Shown here: positions 203-8,128 of the stretch, piece by piece | Layout: each line of letters starts with the position of its first letter | Numbering within the stretch: the stretch's first letter is position 1 | Source of the DNA: a virus | DNA: 30,007 bases | Virus record (IMG/VR): IMGVR_UViG_3300020201_000722 | Coordinates: 1 to 30,007 of that record | Direction: 5' to 3' (one strand) | Translations under genes and position numbers: made by a program | The notes under the pieces: generated by a model | The model's database searches: none | What the model saw: only the letters and a program-made list of their open reading frames with translations | Told to the model about the DNA's origin: nothing

Positions 203-1294
203 TTACGGATTGGCTTCCTGGACCTTGTTGTCCCCTGAGATGCTGAAGAAGCGCTCGCCCCAGAGGCGGCGACGGACGGTGTCCAGAATATGGAGGTTCT
301 CGACGTGGCCGTCGACGAAGGCGAAGTTGGCCTTGCCGCCGTAGGACGCGTCCTGTCCGCCGCCACCGGGGTGGTGGCGACCGACGGCGTTCAGGGTGGT
401 CGGCGCGGAGTCGTCGAGCATGTTGGGCCCGAGCTGGTTCTCTTTGAGGATGTTATTGAGGGGTGGGTAGCGGAAGCGTGCGACGCCTGGGGTGTTCGGC
501 TCGAGATACACGTTCGAGCCCGAGGAGATGCCGACGAAGGGGGTGACGGGGCGATGGCTCTTGGAGATGTTCTCCTGATTGGCCAGGGTCTGCCAGCCGT
601 CCCGAGCCGTGAAAAGGAACTCCGTGACCAGGATCGTCCCCGCTCCGCCGCGGGCGGTCTGCTCGGGCTCGGCGCCACGCACGAAGCGATTCTGCCGTTG
701 CCCCGATTCAAGCGTGAACTTGTTTCGGGGGAAAATGGCGGCATTCCCGGTGTACGCGACGCGCGGCACCTGGCGATCCAGCGGCGTGGAACTGACGGCG
801 CTGCCGCCCAAATCGTTCTGCTGCCAGTCCTCCCAGTCGGCGTAGCGCCCGCCTGGATTGCTGCGGGGGGCGCCGCCGCTTGGCATGGTCGGGCACTCGA
901 AAGAGTCCTGACTGACGTTCCCGCCGTCGAAGAGAAAGAAAGACCAGTGGATGTAGCCGTTCTCCGTGTTTGGATTGGCGAGCTTCTGATCGGCAAGTGT
1001 CCACTTCCCCGAGTCCAAGTCCGCGCCGTACACATATGAGACCGGGTAGTAGTCGCGATCTATGGTGTAGGCGACGACGCCCTGGGCCACGGACCGTGCG
1101 CCAGCCTGGCACTTCAAGGACTGCGCGCTCCTGCGGACGCCGCCCAGGGCCGGGAGCAGGATGCCGATGAGAAGGGCGATGATGGCGATGACCACCAGGA
1201 GTTCAATCAGCGTAAACGCGCCTCGTGGGGCGTTCCGCAAGGCGGCGTGCCGCGCGGTGGGAGAGACAGCCAACGACCAGCGCACATGGGCCAT
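203..1294 (-). CDS. DUF1559 family prepilin-like protein (H-X9-DG type)
   Basis: This 363-residue protein starts with a short basic leader followed by AFTLIELLVVIAIIALLIGI. That is a class III (type IV pilin/pseudopilin) signal: F27 is at +1 after cleavage, E31 is at +5, and a hydrophobic helix follows. Prepilin peptidase would cleave near residue 26, with Ala rather than Gly at -1. The C-terminal half contains HHPGG and later ANFAFVDGHVENL, the hallmark of the H-X9-DG/DUF1559 family, which is massively expanded in Planctomycetota. The likely location is envelope or cell surface; the function of this family is not established. ATG at 1294 has GGAG about 8 nt upstream. It is the best indicator of the host lineage and is probably a chromosomal gene next to the phage-like region, although cargo status cannot be excluded. 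Confidence 0.88.
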   Translation of the reverse strand: MAHVRWSLAVSPTARHAALRNAPRGAFTLIELLVVIAIIALLIGILLPALGGVRRSAQSLKCQAGARSVAQGVVAYTIDRDYYPVSYVYGADLDSGKWTLADQKLANPNTENGYIHWSFFLFDGGNVSQDSFECPTMPSGGAPRSNPGGRYADWEDWQQNDLGGSAVSSTPLDRQVPRVAYTGNAAIFPRNKFTLESGQRQNRFVRGAEPEQTARGGAGTILVTEFLFTARDGWQTLANQENISKSHRPVTPFVGISSGSNVYLEPNTPGVARFRYPPLNNILKENQLGPNMLDDSAPTTLNAVGRHHPGGGGQDASYGGKANFAFVDGHVENLHILDTVRRRLWGERFFSISGDNKVQEANP

Positions 1295-1460: not shown

Positions 1461-1624
1461 CAGCGCCGACCACTACCCCTTGTGGTCAGGCAGCGCCGAC
1501 CACTACCCCTTGTGGTCAGGCAGCGCCGACCACTACCCCTTGTGGTCAGGGCAGCGCCGACCACTAACCCTTGTGGTCAGGGCAGCGCCGACCACTACCC
1601 CTTGTGGTCAGGGCAGCGCCGACC
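1461..1624. repeat. Tandem array of five 30-31 bp hairpin repeats plus a partial sixth
   Basis: Units start at 1461, 1491, 1521, 1552 and 1583, with a truncated copy from 1614. The first two steps are exactly 30 bp; the later steps are 31 bp through one extra G. Units are identical except for one C-to-A change in unit 4 (near 1567). Each contains the inverted repeat GACCAC-(8 nt)-GTGGTC, a 6-bp stem. In the csrA-sense (minus) RNA the loop is AAGGGGUA. The array overlaps the 3' end of csrA. The spacing of about three helical turns would also suit iterons or another phased protein-binding array. There are no variable spacers, so it is not a CRISPR. Confidence 0.95.
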
Positions 1625-1803
1625 CTGGCCTGGTCCACGATGCTGTCCGCGACCTCGCGGCGGTGCAGGTCGATGGCCTTGGGGAACTCCAGGGCCACCT
1701 GGACGCGGTCGCCCCGGATGCTGGAGATGCGGATCACCCCGATGGGGTCCCGCGGATTACCGACCACAATCTCCTCACCCTCCCGACGTGTGATGACCAG
1801 CAT
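1564..1803 (-). CDS. csrA: CsrA/RsmA-type carbon storage regulator with repeat-derived C-terminal tail
   Basis: CsrA is a dimeric RNA-binding post-transcriptional regulator that recognises GGA motifs in hairpin loops near ribosome binding sites. The first 58 residues match the family: MLVITRREGEEIVVG at the N-terminus, and FPKAIDLHRREVADSI at the position of the E. coli VSVHREEIYQRI segment. R6 and R48 correspond to the RNA-contacting Arg6 and Arg44. ATG at 1803 follows AAAGGA with good spacing, 12 nt after the upstream gene ends, so it is the distal gene of the operon. The family is usually about 60-70 residues. Here the last 20 or so of 79 are encoded by the hairpin repeat array, and the stop TAG comes from the variant base in repeat unit 4. 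The core identification is secure; whether the tail matters is unknown. Confidence 0.93.
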   Translation of the reverse strand: MLVITRREGEEIVVGNPRDPIGVIRISSIRGDRVQVALEFPKAIDLHRREVADSIVDQARVGAALTTRGSGRRCPDHKG

Positions 1804-1815
1804 GGCAGAGTCCTT

Positions 1816-2370
1816 TCAAGGCTCCGCGCCCCGCCGCAGGATGCCCCGGACGATTCCGGCGGTCACACGATCGCCGGCGTCGGCCAGATCCTCAGCGATG
1901 CGCTCGAGCGCCGCCCTCTCTATCGGCTGGAGAGGCGGTGGCGTGGTAATGTTTTTGACACGTACCACCTTCAGGCGGATTGGCCGCGTGACAACCCTCC
2001 TCACCACAGTCACGTGGACCTTCTCAACCAGGTTGAGCGTGACGATTCGGGGTCGCAGGACCCGGAACGGCGGGCGCCATGGGCGACTGGGTGCCCGGAT
2101 CGGCGGCGGCTTCGGGGAGGCGCGGAGGTGGTCCTTGGTGTACCGCTTACAGAGGGCCGTCTTCCGGGCGGCCCGCACGCGCTCCGGCGTGCGGTGGCCC
2201 CGCTGGTGCCAGCCGATGACCGCCTTGGTCCGCTTGGCCCCCTCCTCCGAGATGGCGTCCAGCACCACCTCGACCACCTCGCGGACCAGGGCGTTGTGGA
2301 CCCAGATCCGCCGGTGGTCTTGGGTGAGCCGGCGCTGCACCACGCGGGTCAGGACGCTCACGAGCCGCAT
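1816..2370 (-). CDS. Basic protein of unknown function
   Basis: This 184-residue protein begins with ATG at 2370, inside the end of the helicase gene (13-nt overlap, consistent with translational coupling). A longer in-frame extension upstream is only a shadow of the helicase. It is strongly basic, with many Arg/Lys. It has a Pro-rich middle (around residues 85-105), then a Val/Arg-rich beta-like segment, and an Ala/Glu helical C-terminus (PIERAALERIAEDLADAGDRVTAGIVRGIL). I see no enzymatic motif and no membrane segment. Nucleic acid binding is a reasonable guess from the charge and from its place between a helicase and csrA, but it is only a guess. Confidence 0.7.
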   Translation of the reverse strand: MRLVSVLTRVVQRRLTQDHRRIWVHNALVREVVEVVLDAISEEGAKRTKAVIGWHQRGHRTPERVRAARKTALCKRYTKDHLRASPKPPPIRAPSRPWRPPFRVLRPRIVTLNLVEKVHVTVVRRVVTRPIRLKVVRVKNITTPPPLQPIERAALERIAEDLADAGDRVTAGIVRGILRRGAEP

Positions 2371-4061
2371 TGCAGGCCCATCTCCGCCAGGAACCGGCTG
2401 GGGCCGGTGTTCCCCGGCTGCTCGCTGCCGACGACCAGGGTCAGCCCGTGGCGGGCCCGGGTGGCGGCCACGAACGCCAGCCGGCGCTCCTCCTCGAGCT
2501 GGTCCGCGTCCCGGTTCCGCCCCGGAAGCACCCCCTCGTCGAACCCATAGACGAAGACCTGGTCGAACTCGAGCCCCTTGGAGGCGTGGATGGTCATGGC
2601 CTGTAGGGGGTGGTCTGTGTCCACCTCGTCCTGCAGGTCCCGGGCGTTGAGCCAGGCCATGAACGCGGCGGGCGTCCGGCTGGCGTAGGCGGTCGCCCCG
2701 ACGAACCGGGCGACGATCCGCGTCACCTCGTCCCACGCCGCCCCAGGGCCGTCCCTGAGCCCCAGCAGGGCCGCCACGACCTCCAGGCGCTCGCCCAGCC
2801 CGAGGCCCTGGCAATCCTCCTCCAGCTCCCGCACCAGCTCGTCCTGAGCCGCGGCGACCTCCCAGAACGTCCGCCCGGAACCCTTGGCGTCCGCCATCAG
2901 GGTTATGACGTCAAGCTCCGACCACCCCATCGCCCGCAGCGCCCGCTCACAGACGCTCGTGCTCAGGGGCAGGGCAGCGAAGCACAGGGCCGCAAAGGCC
3001 TCCCGGACGTCCGGGCGCTCCAGGATCCGCTCCTGGCGCCCCACCAGGCTTGGCTTGAGCCCACAGGCCTCCATCTCGGCCATGGCCTCCGACAGGACCG
3101 CGTGCGTCCGGGCCAGCACGGCGACGGAGACCCCATCCCCCATCACCCCCAGGACGGCGGGGGCGAAGCGCTGGGCGTCGATGACGCGGACCTCCCCCTC
3201 GTCCTCCCGGTGCGGGATCATCACCTTGGCGATCCGGTTCTGGTTGTGGGCGATGAGGCGGTCGGCCGCGGCGACGATCCGCCGGCCGCTGCGGTAGTTG
3301 GTCTCGAGCTTGGCGATCCCGGCGCCCCACTCCCCCACCTGCCAGCGCATCGTCTCGACGCTCGCACCCCGCCAGCCGTACACGAGCTGGTCGATGTCCC
3401 CCACGGCGAACAGCCGCTCCGGCTTGCAGTGCTTGAAAAACGCCCACTGGGCGCGGTCAAGGTCCTGCACCTCGTCGGCGAAGATGTGGGTCCAGCCGGG
3501 GGGGTGGCGGGAGGCGAGTTCCAGCCCCAGGTACGCCGCGGTCTGGTAGTCGATGGCGTTGGCCTGCTTGAGTTCCTGGAGGTAGGAGTCGATGACAGCG
3601 CCAACCGCCGGCTCGAGCCCGGTGGGGCGGGTCCCGTGCTCCCCCATGTGATCGAGGGCCTTGTGGACGGCGGTCTTGGAGGGCTTGCGCCGGGCGGTGT
3701 TGATGACCCGGGCGATGACGCGGTCCTGCTCGATCCGGTCGAACAGCTCGATCTCCGGACCACGGAACCCCAACTCCTCCCAGGCGGCGCACACGAGCTG
3801 GTAGCAGACGCCGTGGAAGGTGCCGATGGTGAGGCCGCGGACGGTGCCCAGCCGGCGCATGGTCTCGGCCGCCGCCAGCCTGGTGAATGTCACCAGGAGG
3901 ATCCGGCGCGGGTCCACCGCGTCGTCGAGGGCGGCGCGGACGGCGGCGACCAGTGTGCGGGTCTTGCCGGAGCCAGGCCCGGCGACCACCATCATGGCCC
4001 GGAGGCCGCTCCGGACACAGTCGGCTTGGGCAGGGTCCAGATCGCTCGCCGGCTTCCGCAT
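2358..4061 (-). CDS. UvrD/PcrA-type superfamily 1A DNA helicase
   Basis: This 567-residue ATP-dependent 3'-5' type DNA helicase has every SF1 signature in order. They are the Q-motif region LDPAQADCV (8-16), Walker A AGPGSGKT (27-34), TFTRLAAAE (58-66), GTFHG (80-84), Walker B DEVQD (196-200) and GDIDQLVYGWRGA (221-233). NYRS (255-258), HASKGLEFD (492-500) and ERRLAFVAATRA (525-536) follow. It is shorter than typical UvrD (about 700), and I see no nuclease domain. ATG at 4061 is preferred over the upstream ATG at 4085 because it overlaps the preceding stop as TGATG and has GGGGAGG upstream. In this operon it probably acts with the SMC-like ATPase on DNA ends or recombination intermediates. 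Confidence 0.93.
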   Translation of the reverse strand: MRKPASDLDPAQADCVRSGLRAMMVVAGPGSGKTRTLVAAVRAALDDAVDPRRILLVTFTRLAAAETMRRLGTVRGLTIGTFHGVCYQLVCAAWEELGFRGPEIELFDRIEQDRVIARVINTARRKPSKTAVHKALDHMGEHGTRPTGLEPAVGAVIDSYLQELKQANAIDYQTAAYLGLELASRHPPGWTHIFADEVQDLDRAQWAFFKHCKPERLFAVGDIDQLVYGWRGASVETMRWQVGEWGAGIAKLETNYRSGRRIVAAADRLIAHNQNRIAKVMIPHREDEGEVRVIDAQRFAPAVLGVMGDGVSVAVLARTHAVLSEAMAEMEACGLKPSLVGRQERILERPDVREAFAALCFAALPLSTSVCERALRAMGWSELDVITLMADAKGSGRTFWEVAAAQDELVRELEEDCQGLGLGERLEVVAALLGLRDGPGAAWDEVTRIVARFVGATAYASRTPAAFMAWLNARDLQDEVDTDHPLQAMTIHASKGLEFDQVFVYGFDEGVLPGRNRDADQLEEERRLAFVAATRARHGLTLVVGSEQPGNTGPSRFLAEMGLQCGS

Positions 4062-4309
4062 CAGAGCCTCCCCGTGACGTTCCATACCTCGCCCTCGTCG
4101 ACGACCACCTCTGGCACCTCATACCCCAGCCGGCGGATGAAGGACAGGGCGTGTCGCATCTCAGTCGGGGACACCGCGTGCTCAGGGGAGTTTGGTCCGC
4201 TCGCCCTCAGAAGGCGGTGGTGGCCCCCCCGCTCCATGACCCGAAGCAACAGGCTCGACACGAACCAGACCCGGTCCACCGACACATGGCTGCCTTCGGC
4301 CCACTGCAT
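4061..4309 (-). CDS. Small protein of unknown function (82 aa)
   Basis: ATG at 4307-4309 has GGGAGG about 8 nt upstream, a strong ribosome binding site in this genome. The frame ends in a TGATG overlap with the helicase start, so the two are translationally coupled. The product is soluble-looking, with an Arg/His-rich centre and an acidic C-terminal segment (EVPEVVVDEGEVWNV). I do not recognise it. Being read immediately before the helicase, it could be a partner or adaptor of the helicase or of the upstream ATPase. A longer frame running upstream into the ATPase gene is a shadow. Confidence 0.65.
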   Translation of the reverse strand: MQWAEGSHVSVDRVWFVSSLLLRVMERGGHHRLLRASGPNSPEHAVSPTEMRHALSFIRRLGYEVPEVVVDEGEVWNVTGRL

Positions 4310-4373
4310 GCGCCGCCTCCCGGGCCGCGTCGTCACGCGCGGCGTTTGCCCTTCCGCGCCCGCCCCTGATCCG

Positions 4374-6401
4374 CTAGAGCCGGACGACCTGCCACTCATC
4401 CCGCCCACCCGCGTCCTCCACCCGCGACGTTGCGATCGCCGCGAAGTCGAGCCCGAGTTTGGGCAGCCCATTGAGGGCACCGACCATGCCGGTGTCGTCC
4501 AGGCCCGTGTCGTGCAGCAAGAGGAGGGAACCCTGTGTGCCACAGATCGCCTGCATCGCCGACAGGAACGCCGCGGCCGTCAGCACCGTCTCGCCGTCGC
4601 TGAGCATGTCCATGGGGACCTCGCGCCCGCGACGGGTGACGCGGAATCCGAAGTCGGTCGATCGCCCCGACCCCTCGGAGTGGTGGGAGGTCCTGGTGTC
4701 CGGCCCGAACAACAGGCCGAACCGCTCCTCGAACGGGGCCATGACCTTCGCGAGCGACTCGCGGAGGAGCTGGTCCCTGGCGTCCTGCACCAGCTCCACC
4801 AGGCGCTTGAGCACGCCCACCGCCATGTCGGCGCGGGCGATGTCGAGTTTTGCGGCCTCGATCTGCCCGTCGATGCCCATGGCCTTCTGGATCGCCGCGA
4901 TCTGAACCTTCCACTCCGTCCGCCTCGCCTTGAGGGCGGCCACCTGCTCATCGAGCGAGGCGGTCGACTCCACGGCCGCGGTCCTGGCGGCACTCTGCTC
5001 CAGGCTGCGGACCTGCTCCTCCGACGTCGCCACCGTGGCCCGCATGGCGTCGATGGTGTCACGTGCGGCCACCGCCGCGGCTCGCTTGGCCACAGCATCG
5101 TCGACGGCGACACGCGCCTTCTCCGCGATGTCCTCGGCCGCGTCCGCCGTCTTGGCGCGATCCGCGACGGCCTTGACAGCCTTCTCGAGCGCCGAACCCG
5201 CGTCCTTCTCCCTCGCCTCCCAGACCGGCGGCAGGCCGAGCACCGTCGTCACCACACCCGTCACCAGGCCGACCAGATCATCCTGCAGCGCCGGCGTGTC
5301 GTGGACCAGCTTCTTCAGGAGGGGCGACGCCTGCTCTATGACGGTGTGCATCTCCGCCATGACCATGGCGTTCCAGTCCAGGTTGGCGACCTTGCGGGCC
5401 AGCTCGAGCCGCTCCCGCACGCGCCCCAGCTCCACCTCGGCCTCGTCCCGGGTCTTCTGGACCGAGTCCACCCACGACAGCGCCGCGGACGCATTGCCGG
5501 CCGCTTCGTCCCGCGCTGTGCGGGCCCTCCCGAGCGAGTCCTCCAGGGACGGGATGCTCTCGACCGCCGCTTCCGCGAGCTTCAACGCCGCCTTGGCCTT
5601 GTCGACCTCTGACCTGGCGGACGCGAGCACCTTGCCCGCCGCTGTGTACCGCTCCTGATCGACCTCGACCGAGCGCTTGCGGCCCTCCAGATCGCCGATG
5701 GTCTTGTCGATCTCAGAGATGGAGTCCTGGGCCTCGGACAGGGACGCCGCCCGGGGCGTCGCCGCCGCCGTCTGGTTCAGGTGCTCGAGCCGCCCACGGG
5801 CGTCCTTGGCCCGCTGCGCGTACGCGTTCTGCTCATCCTTCACCCGCATCAGCAGGCCCGCCGGCGGGGCGGTGATCTCACCCATCGCCAGCAGATCCCC
5901 GAACCCGTCCAGCGTGCCAAGCTCCGCTTCGAGCCAGGTGTCGAACCCATCCCGCAACAGATCCTTGAGCGCCGTCTCGCTGCCAGCCTCCAGCAGGCGA
6001 GCGAACAGCTCCGCCCGCTTCTGCCCGGAGAGGCCAAGGAACGCCCCCAGATCGGCGTGGTGGGGCTCTGCGGTCGTGATGCCGGCGACCCTGGTCTTGT
6101 ACTGGGCCGCGGGCACCGCCATGCTGTCGACGTAGTACGAGCACTTGCCCCGGCGGAAGATGCGCTCGAGCGCCGGCCCACCATCGAACCGGAGGCCGAC
6201 GCTCCACTCGGAGCCCGGCGACAGCCGCTCCATGTTCGTCTGCCCATGCCGCGTGGGCAGGTCGAGCGTGATGGCCACGGCCTCGAGGAGCGTGGACTTG
6301 CCCGCCCCCATCCTGCCGGTCACCAGCAGGTTCCGGTGCGTGACGTCCACCTTCCGCGACAACCCCTTGAAACCCTTGTGACTGATCTGTGTGATCCGCA
6401 C
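4374..6401 (-). CDS. SMC/SbcC/RecF-like coiled-coil ATPase
   Basis: This 675-residue protein has split-ATPase architecture. Walker A GRMGAGKST is at 29-37 after an N-terminal strand of the RecF/SbcC kind. A long Ala/Glu/Lys/Arg-rich coiled coil spans roughly 190-560, with a non-coiled middle around 340-395. The C-terminal signature LSDGE is at 600-604, followed by a Walker B-like LLLLHDTGLDD (626-636). No zinc-hook CxxC and no TOPRIM domain are visible, so it is neither a normal Rad50/SbcC nor an OLD nuclease. The usual Asp-Glu pair of Walker B is replaced by HDTGLDD. The start is GTG at 6401, two bases after the previous stop, with GAAGGGG upstream. It likely binds or tethers DNA in recombination, replication or defence; its nuclease partner is not evident. 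Confidence 0.88.
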   Translation of the reverse strand: MRITQISHKGFKGLSRKVDVTHRNLLVTGRMGAGKSTLLEAVAITLDLPTRHGQTNMERLSPGSEWSVGLRFDGGPALERIFRRGKCSYYVDSMAVPAAQYKTRVAGITTAEPHHADLGAFLGLSGQKRAELFARLLEAGSETALKDLLRDGFDTWLEAELGTLDGFGDLLAMGEITAPPAGLLMRVKDEQNAYAQRAKDARGRLEHLNQTAAATPRAASLSEAQDSISEIDKTIGDLEGRKRSVEVDQERYTAAGKVLASARSEVDKAKAALKLAEAAVESIPSLEDSLGRARTARDEAAGNASAALSWVDSVQKTRDEAEVELGRVRERLELARKVANLDWNAMVMAEMHTVIEQASPLLKKLVHDTPALQDDLVGLVTGVVTTVLGLPPVWEAREKDAGSALEKAVKAVADRAKTADAAEDIAEKARVAVDDAVAKRAAAVAARDTIDAMRATVATSEEQVRSLEQSAARTAAVESTASLDEQVAALKARRTEWKVQIAAIQKAMGIDGQIEAAKLDIARADMAVGVLKRLVELVQDARDQLLRESLAKVMAPFEERFGLLFGPDTRTSHHSEGSGRSTDFGFRVTRRGREVPMDMLSDGETVLTAAAFLSAMQAICGTQGSLLLLHDTGLDDTGMVGALNGLPKLGLDFAAIATSRVEDAGGRDEWQVVRL

Positions 6402-6402
6402 T

Positions 6403-7641
6403 TCACGCCCCTTCGATCTTCTTCAACTCTTCCAGGAACTTCACCAGCTCCTCTGTGCTCGCCACCTCCAAGGTGTCAATCTCGAGACCCTTGAGCACCG
6501 TCCTCGCCTTCTTGACCCCCTTGAGCTGCGTCAGGCGGCCGAACCCCTTGATCGCGTTGGGCAACAGCTCCGCGTCCGGCTCGTCCGCCCCCGCCTCCGC
6601 CTCATCGTCCTTCGCCGCTTCCGCCGCCGCTTCCGATTGCGTTACCTCATCAAGCGCCACCAGATCCTCGGCGTCGATCGTCGTCTCCTGGCGGACGTCG
6701 ACCGATACCGACCGCCCCTTGCCGTCGCGGAACTCGTGCAGCAGATCGTTCTCCACGAGCTTGCGCAGGTTGTCGATCTCGCTCCGGTTGAAGTCGGTGG
6801 TCCAGCCGAAGACCTCAACCATGGCCACCCCGCGGTCCACGTGCAGGACGCGAGGGATGGACGGGTGGGCCTTGAGGGCGTTGCGTTCCGCGAAGGACTG
6901 CGCCAGTCGCTCGACGAACTTGAGTCTGGTTGTGTGGTCCTGGAAGACCGCCTGCATGGCGCGGCTGTGCTTGTTGACCCACAGACCGAACGCCCCGCCC
7001 GGGAAGGCGTGGATCGGCATGAACTTGTACCCGGCACGCTTCTGCCCCTGCTCGTCGGTCGGCGGCTCGTCGTCGGAGCCATAGATCGCGATCGCGTCGG
7101 CCTGCTGGGGCGTATCGGCCTTCTTCAACTTGGCTTGGATGTTCTCCATGATGTAGATGTTCATGTCCAGACGCACCATGACGTCGGTCGCGGCCAGAGA
7201 CCCGGTGGGGGAGTACCCCACCACAACGGCGCGGGCGTGCACCACCTTGGGCAGATCCGTGCGTGGGTCCACGATGATGTAGGGGTTGCCGCGCTTGTCC
7301 CCGTCCACCACCACGTACTCAGGGCGGATCACGGACAGGGCCGGCACCTCGTTGAGCTTGCGGAACCCGTCCATCGAGATAGAGAACTTCCCGTCGCCGG
7401 CGGGGTTCAGGGTGCCGTCCGCGATCGACAGCCGGACCCTGCTCCGCGTGCGGCGGATCGTGACACCCTCGCGCCGGACGAAGACCGTCTCGGGCAGGGC
7501 CGTGGTGTTCATCTTGACCAGGGCCATGATGAGCTGGCCGGCCACCTCGGGGTTGTTCCTCGCGATCTCGGTCGCGAACGCCTCGGTCAGAGAGCCCACG
7601 TCCAGGTTGGCCTTGGCGAGCTCGGTCTTGGGTTCCGCCAC
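6403..7641 (-). CDS. Unknown protein with C-terminal helix-hairpin-helix-like segment
   Basis: The start is GTG at 7641, overlapping the upstream stop as TAGTG with GGAGGGG just before it, giving 412 residues. The longer open frame up to 8127 crosses the neighbouring gene and the promoter and is rejected. The N-terminal 300 residues are a mixed alpha/beta domain I cannot place. A segment WVNKHSRAMQAVF followed by LKFVERLAQSFAERNALKAHPSIP loosely recalls the C-terminal part of RecT-like annealases, which is weak. An acidic linker (about 330-355) leads to a C-terminal stretch LTQLKGVKKARTVLKGLEID (from about 370), which resembles a helix-hairpin-helix DNA-binding unit. With an SMC-like ATPase directly downstream, a DNA-binding partner role is inferred. 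Confidence 0.75.
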   Translation of the reverse strand: MAEPKTELAKANLDVGSLTEAFATEIARNNPEVAGQLIMALVKMNTTALPETVFVRREGVTIRRTRSRVRLSIADGTLNPAGDGKFSISMDGFRKLNEVPALSVIRPEYVVVDGDKRGNPYIIVDPRTDLPKVVHARAVVVGYSPTGSLAATDVMVRLDMNIYIMENIQAKLKKADTPQQADAIAIYGSDDEPPTDEQGQKRAGYKFMPIHAFPGGAFGLWVNKHSRAMQAVFQDHTTRLKFVERLAQSFAERNALKAHPSIPRVLHVDRGVAMVEVFGWTTDFNRSEIDNLRKLVENDLLHEFRDGKGRSVSVDVRQETTIDAEDLVALDEVTQSEAAAEAAKDDEAEAGADEPDAELLPNAIKGFGRLTQLKGVKKARTVLKGLEIDTLEVASTEELVKFLEELKKIEGA

Positions 7642-7949
7642 TATCCCCTCCTCGGCAGCTTCCGGAGCTGCCTGACGATCTTCTTGGCGCAGACGCCGCA
7701 CGCGCCTCCCGCCACCCGCACCGCATCGTCCAGGCCAATCGACTCGGCCCCAGGCAGGGCGATGGCCCGGGCCCGGACGCCCTTGCGACGCTCCAGGGCG
7801 CCGCCCCGAATGAGATTGGCGATGTGCGCGACCACGGCGGTCTTGCTCACCTCCATCCCATCGGCGATTTCCTGGTGGGTTGGGGCGTAGCCGTGCTTGG
7901 CCACATACGCCCGAATCCAATCGAGCACCTCGCGCTGCCTCGGTGTCAA
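7641..7949 (-). CDS. LexA-type winged helix-turn-helix regulator lacking the protease domain
   Basis: This 102-residue protein has a first 65 residues that match the LexA DNA-binding domain: LTPRQREVLDWIRAYVAKHG, then YAPTHQEIADGMEVSKTAVVAHIANLIRGGAL. It has no S24 self-cleavage domain, so SOS-type autoproteolysis is not possible. The C-terminus instead carries CGVC (C84, C87) and a basic KKIVRQLRKL tail. The CxxC could bind metal as a dimer, which is speculative. The start is TTG at 7949 with GGGAG about 8 nt upstream; an in-frame TAG shortly upstream leaves no ATG or GTG alternative. It is the first gene of the left operon, about 55 nt from a strong promoter, so it probably autoregulates that operon. 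Confidence 0.85.
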   Translation of the reverse strand: MTPRQREVLDWIRAYVAKHGYAPTHQEIADGMEVSKTAVVAHIANLIRGGALERRKGVRARAIALPGAESIGLDDAVRVAGGACGVCAKKIVRQLRKLPRRG

Positions 7950-8005: not shown

Positions 8006-8034
8006 AGCGTACCGCCCGGGCGGACACTTGTCAA
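8006..8034 (-). promoter_or_regulatory. Sigma-70-type promoter of the left operon
   Basis: On the minus strand a perfect -35 TTGACA (8034-8029) is separated by exactly 17 bp from TACGCT (8011-8006), which keeps the TA...T of a -10 box. Transcription would begin near 8000, leaving a 5' leader of about 50 nt before the TTG start at 7949. Confidence 0.7.
8012..8023. promoter_or_regulatory. Candidate operator: perfect 12-bp palindrome in the promoter spacer
   Basis: CCGCCCGGGCGG lies exactly between the -35 and -10 boxes, flanked by GTA on one side and AC on the other, so the symmetry nearly extends further. Its position is ideal for repression by the winged-helix protein encoded first in the operon. 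I know of no match to the classical LexA boxes (CTG-N10-CAG or GAAC-N4-GTTC). Confidence 0.5.
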
Positions 8035-8128
8035 AAGGTTACCACGCACATCACGGCTATGGCCGAAGGGCGAACTGGACCACCAGCCACTTGATGACCC
8101 GCACGCCACAGACCTTCCCTGTGCCAAG

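Follow-up and report, generated by a model that had tools for sequence, protein, structure and literature searches.

The locus examined here raises the question of what a compact block of six genes, lying directly downstream of phage tail genes in the reading direction, might do as a whole. The DNA analysed (hereafter the window) is a stretch of 30,007 bases with a G+C content of 67%, corresponding to positions 1 to 30,007 of IMG/VR virus record IMGVR_UViG_3300020201_000722. A siphovirus tail module, encoded on the minus strand from about position 8,100 rightwards, includes genes for a GTA-type tail protein, tail assembly, tape-measure-like and minor tail proteins. Since the block comes after this module in a virus record, it is a phage early cassette and not a bacterial operon. 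An initial annotation of the sequence had described it as a single functional unit matching no system that could be named, with likeness to both recombination and defence genes.

Gene content and surroundings of the block

The genes, named A to F in reading order, and the gene that follows them are listed below.

A: 7641..7949, minus strand, 102-aa LexA-type winged-helix DNA-binding protein (PF01726, 1e-14)
B: 6403..7641, minus strand, 412-aa putative single-strand annealing protein (phrog_32428, 2e-26)
C: 4374..6401, minus strand, 675-aa SMC/Rad50-like ATPase (phrog_1499, 6e-13; SMC_N 1e-4, below cut-off)
D: 4061..4309, minus strand, 82-aa orphan protein (coding composition)
E: 2358..4085, minus strand, 575-aa UvrD-family SF1A helicase (UvrD-helicase PF00580, 7e-39; UvrD_C PF13361, 8e-28; phrog_1967, 7e-88)
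F: 1816..2370, minus strand, 184-aa basic orphan protein (coding composition)
csrA: 1564..1803, minus strand, CsrA-like RNA-binding regulator (PF02599, 5.5e-11)

The six genes initially annotated, with their strand, coordinates and junctions, were confirmed. A and B have one nucleotide in common (TAGTG, 7641), B and C are 1 nt apart, 64 nt separate C from D, and E overlaps F by 13 nt. The overlap between D and E is 25 nt when E is counted from its first ATG (4085), or 1 nt (TGATG) if translation starts at the second in-frame ATG at 4061, which would give a protein of 567 aa. The plus strand carries long shadow reading frames (for example 1000 aa at 2610-5612). Codon-position composition in A to F is that of real genes (GC3 0.84-0.93, GC2 0.40-0.50), and such GC3 values, in DNA of 67% G+C, support all six as coding. 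The proposed extent of the unit held for A to F but proved too short at its downstream end, where the block continues into csrA. This gene starts 12 nt after F and is likely to be on the same transcript.

Positions 1447-1624 on the minus strand consist of a 31-nt unit repeated in tandem almost six times, beginning inside the 3' end of csrA. Each copy can form the hairpin GACCAC-AAGGGGTA-GTGGTC, and the region folds better than shuffled sequences (z -4.7). The loops of these hairpins contain no GGA; it is conceivable that the repeats act as a CsrA sponge or an autoregulatory RNA. At the left end of the record, a pseudopilin-like gene (203-1294, minus strand) has relatives in metagenome-assembled genomes of Phycisphaerales and other Planctomycetota, with 46-50% identity in long matches. 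Because of these relatives, the host is probably a Phycisphaerales planctomycete; the gene itself could be host DNA at a prophage edge.

The product of A had been called a LexA-like regulator. The LexA-type winged helix was indeed found, but it is present alone, the S24 peptidase being absent. Only the closest relatives (L057/G401 and L022) have a homolog of A in this position, and A is probably a local regulator of the cassette. Upstream of A, at about 8009-8033 on the minus strand, the motif TTGACA adjoins a perfect 12-bp palindrome, CCGCCCGGGCGG, which is a possible operator. No sigma-70-like site passed the scan upstream of A, and no matching site was seen upstream of A in L057. Searches with family models, which had been proposed for the 412-, 82- and 184-residue proteins, gave a match for B and none above threshold for D and F in four libraries. 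D had no phmmer match at E 0.01 among the reading frames of the relatives, and no relatives of F were found.

B, C and E in related phages

The only family that B matches is phrog_32428, to which PHROGs assigns no function; neither Pfam nor NCBIfam gave a match, and the earlier label, HhH-like, is unsupported for the protein as a whole. Nothing was found when B, C, E or the tail protein was used singly to scan IMG/VR, or B to scan GTDB genomes, and a tblastn search with B and three relatives against named phages gave no true match. The first lead was a borderline match in a Clostridioides plasmid, whose protein matches phrog_32428 at 1.5e-21. We then turned a conserved motif, AQSxxxRNALKxxP, into a DNA pattern for an IMG/VR search. 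This pattern returned 14 stretches, in 13 of which the encoded protein is clearly related to B (phmmer 1e-109 to 5e-18), and two profile-guided scans raised the number to 31 other viral records (about 28 after removal of near-copies), some of which may be fragments. The motif specific to the family is AQ[ST]xxxRNxxK. Among 392 genomes of the planctomycete phylum, phrog_32428 gave one weak short match only. On Clostridioides plasmid pESS17301a (4349-8900), a ubiquitin-like gene set with a prokaryotic E2 (Prok-E2_D) and ThiF lies upstream of the phrog_32428 protein, and further along comes an AAA ATPase whose annotation is double-strand-break repair.

The gene-neighbourhood survey suggested in the initial annotation could thus be run. 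In 30 of the 31 other viral records, the gene next after B belongs to the C family, and the two often overlap by 4 nt; 29 records also encode an E-family UvrD helicase further downstream on that strand. The two records without a downstream E are L022, whose contig ends within C, and L067. A reading frame of 58 aa stands between B and C in L058, and the reading frame of B in L097 was read by eye. The closest record (L057/G401) has genes for the tail protein and a DUF2793 protein, then A, B and C, in the order of the window; four genes are inserted between its C and E, encoding AAA/BCS1-like, HerA-like, 139-aa and DUF5131 proteins. DUF5131 genes occur in 14 of the 28 cassette-bearing records, among them that of G401 (L050, 12695-13963), and in several they lie close to E. 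From the recurrence of C and E behind B, and from the order kept in the closest record, B-C-E is a conserved unit. The idea of one functional unit therefore applies to B, C and E, whose order recurs in about 29 viral records, but not to the six-gene set, as A is limited to the closest relatives and D and F are without relatives found. B-C-E is a recurring core of phage early regions, and recombination was the right field in which to place it.

Cas4-type exonucleases are the usual partners of phage single-strand annealing proteins (SSAPs). In L067, a Cas4-domain exonuclease (phrog_1990, 4e-13) directly follows B with a 4-nt overlap and is itself followed by a replisome organiser; C and E are absent from the fetched stretch, and E from the whole record. 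The gene order of this one divergent record is that of the classical SSAP-exonuclease arrangement. A second comparison is provided by Pseudomonas phages phi297 and BR153a, whose cassette reads PD-(D/E)XK nuclease, RecT, small protein, FtsK-like protein, SbcC-like ATPase. As in the window, a phrog_1499-type SbcC/RecF-like ATPase lies downstream of an SSAP and a CsrA-like gene is nearby; unlike the window, this cassette has RecT and a nuclease, and no UvrD is annotated in the stretch examined. In both phages (L002 and L003), the early region includes a gene for a carbon-storage or global regulator, which precedes the ATPase by a few kilobases. Phage CsrA near such ATPase cassettes thus recurs in the window, phi297 and BR153a.

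Genes for replisome organisers, DnaB_2, IstB/DnaC and SSB neighbour the cassette in relatives, and UvrD-family helicases can act in replication restart. Both points would fit a replication or restart module in which E is a replicative or restart helicase, B a non-annealing ssDNA-binding or loader protein, and C an organiser of the replisome. However, the relatives have separate replication initiators and SSB, and recombination is indicated instead by the Cas4 exonuclease that partners B in L067 and by the RecT that takes the corresponding position in the Pseudomonas phages. We consider a replication module unlikely.

Predicted fold of B

The predicted layout of B comprises a core at residues about 50-300, an acidic linker and a helical C-terminal domain at about 357-412. 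AF2 models were obtained for the whole protein (21 rows, pLDDT 70) and for the core (26 rows, pLDDT 82, pTM 0.77). When both were compared with the PDB, the best alignments covering the full core were with RAD52, then Mgm101, then RecT of Listeria phage A118. Over the two models, Z was 5.5-6.6 for RAD52 across 112-119 residues (6.6 over 117 for the core model), 4.2-5.3 for Mgm101 and 3.5-3.6 for the Listeria phage RecT. All these values are below 8, a range in which, by the alignment tool's own note, a score can reflect a common arrangement. Unrelated PDB rows with Z of 4 or more span only 53-91 residues, and two ribosomal-complex chains score as high as the SSAPs, over short stretches. Structure prediction, another of the analyses initially proposed, thus yielded an alignment with SSAPs over the whole core, but at Z of only 3.5-6.6, and the similarity to the annealase fold, a beta-sheet with a traversing helix and a beta-hairpin, is suggestive only.

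Other comparisons of B were negative. Foldseek gave no significant PDB or viral match with the models (best E 0.02 to 0.15), and profile-profile alignment with three RecT proteins (hhalign) returned a probability of 0.5%. A phmmer search of the PDB with B found nothing, and the B profile, run on PDB sequences, picked up a capsid protein and other marginally scoring entries but no SSAP. B also had no sequence match to the named SSAP models (RecT, ERF, Sak3, Sak4, Rad52), a result that concerns sequence families and not the fold of the superfamily. No Redbeta structure was among the VIA matches listed for B, which carries no weight as an exclusion. The annealase superfamily is described as keeping its fold while sequences diverge past easy recognition (PMC11783212).

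The same families were looked for elsewhere in these phages. RecT, ERF and Sak4 (AAA_24) were found in none of the 28 records, window included, which makes B their best SSAP candidate. B shares several features with the Rad52, RecT, Redbeta, ERF and Sak3 annealases (PMC11783212, PMC8093625): the predicted core aligns, at low Z, along its whole length with RAD52, Mgm101 and phage RecT structures, an acidic linker is followed by a variable C-terminal domain, and the gene lies, in the phage recombination region, beside that of an SMC-type ATPase or, in one case, an exonuclease. It differs from the named families in showing no detectable sequence similarity to them and in having its own motif. SMC genes adjoining recT or redbeta have been reported in Firmicutes phages (PMC8093625).

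We infer an annealing activity for B from its position, the L067 exception, the predicted fold and the lack of the SSAPs searched for. At a probability of about 0.78, B would represent a new SSAP (annealase) family with a diverged fold of the Rad52/RecT type, acting in a siphovirus recombination cassette together with C and E. Contrary to the view that the block matches no nameable system, cassettes of an SSAP and an SMC-like ATPase are a known kind, found also with RecT in the Pseudomonas phages; the set of partners is unusual.

Partners of B and a possible source of single strands

C carries a Walker A motif (GRMGAGKS), an LSDGE signature and a coiled coil, and its family matches to SMC_N/AAA_29 are weak. 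In the C family, Walker A is intact and the signature reads LSDGE, LSTGQ or LSGGE/Q, features in which C resembles Rad50/SbcC. The Walker B region (HDTGLD, IDNIENLD or EAAELD) differs in keeping the aspartate without the catalytic glutamate that follows it in Rad50/SbcC, where an Asp-Glu pair is typical; the ATPases of the Pseudomonas phages also do without this pair (LLDRFDVLD). The zinc-hook-like CxxC motif, common to several members of the family (CEQC in the single-chain C of L057), is absent from C of the window. In one well-supported clade of B (10 rows, 100/100), C is split in two genes: the N-terminal half ends in CxxC and the C-terminal half has LSGG and Walker B, as if a Rad50 had been cut at its zinc hook. 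The records with the split Rad50-like ATPase (L068-L078, L097 and L098, L073 excepted) form a single phage clade. Since the catalytic residue departs from the usual, the sequences suggest that C may be a clamp more than a fast motor.

These likenesses, the CxxC hook carried by L057 and the split forms, and the matches of relatives to phrog_77 SbcC would accord with an end-processing complex of the SbcCD or Mre11-Rad50 type, with C paired to a nuclease subunit and B as an accessory protein. Against this, no Mre11/SbcD partner was found for C: metallophosphoesterase PF00149 was detected in none of the 28 records, possibly fragments, while the control search succeeded in 14 of 14 genomes. The catalytic glutamate is, moreover, missing across the C family. 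An SbcCD-type complex is in our view very improbable.

E has both the N- and C-terminal UvrD domains, as in the UvrD/PcrA/Rep SF1A helicases, and is best described by phrog_1967, a phage DNA helicase. Its PADLOC match to GajB (1.5e-60) arises because GajB is a UvrD helicase; UvrD/PcrA models fit E about equally, and phrog_1967 fits it better. This match, together with weak ones of C to DndD (3e-8), mad3 (4e-7) and LmuB (3e-6), speaks for a defence module carried by a phage or prophage, of the Gabija, Lamassu or Wadjet type, with C sensing or loading on foreign DNA and E processing it. Gabija (GajA-GajB) does resemble the block in having an SMC/OLD-like ATPase adjoining a UvrD helicase. GajA, however, has a TOPRIM domain, which was not found in C; GajA and JetC match C in the Walker A region only (GajA models cover residues 1-49); and the block has the extra conserved partner B and a phage early-region site. 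Neither a nuclease nor an effector was recognised as a partner, and PADLOC gave no match for D and F. The cassette, moreover, belongs to the conserved early region of many phages, next to replication genes, and is not cargo of a variable site. A defence role is very unlikely.

The individual defence systems fared as follows. Gabija was rejected, C lacking the TOPRIM nuclease domain, and so was Wadjet (JetABCD), no JetA, JetB or JetD matches for A to F being among the PADLOC matches listed. The Lamassu reading is not supported by the sequences: the LmuA effector had no match among A to F in PADLOC, although the LmuB model does align weakly with the coiled-coil part of C. The defence-type likeness of the initial annotation is not borne out by these comparisons.

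If B anneals strands, it has to be asked where they come from. The nuclease models PF12705 and YqaJ were negative in the 28 records, but PF12705 also missed the nuclease of L067, so that a nuclease elsewhere in these phages is possible. With four phage nucleases as queries, phmmer searches of the fetched flanks and the whole window detected only L067 itself. A recognised nuclease is missing from the surroundings of B in records with C and E but present in the one without them, and this contrast suggests that C and E may substitute for an exonuclease.

In such a scheme, E, as a 3'-5' UvrD-type helicase, would open the duplex and thereby give B its single-stranded substrate, or would take intermediates apart, filling the role that an exonuclease normally has beside an SSAP. 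The single-stranded phage DNA would be coated by B, which would then anneal complementary strands, and C would hold, tether or clamp DNA ends. A may control the unit, and CsrA may regulate phage or host mRNAs. We propose only tentatively, as an idea rather less likely to be right than wrong, that B founds an SSAP family without dedicated exonuclease, C and E supplying and holding the strands, so that annealing would be helicase-driven and not exonuclease-driven as in Red or RecET.

SSAPs drive the mosaicism of phage genomes, and recombineering tools are built around them. If B is an annealase, it would add a family to the superfamily that includes human RAD52, and its relatives would be recombineering candidates for hosts without such tools, for example planctomycetes. 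It would also pose the question of how annealing is fed when an SMC ATPase and a helicase replace the exonuclease.
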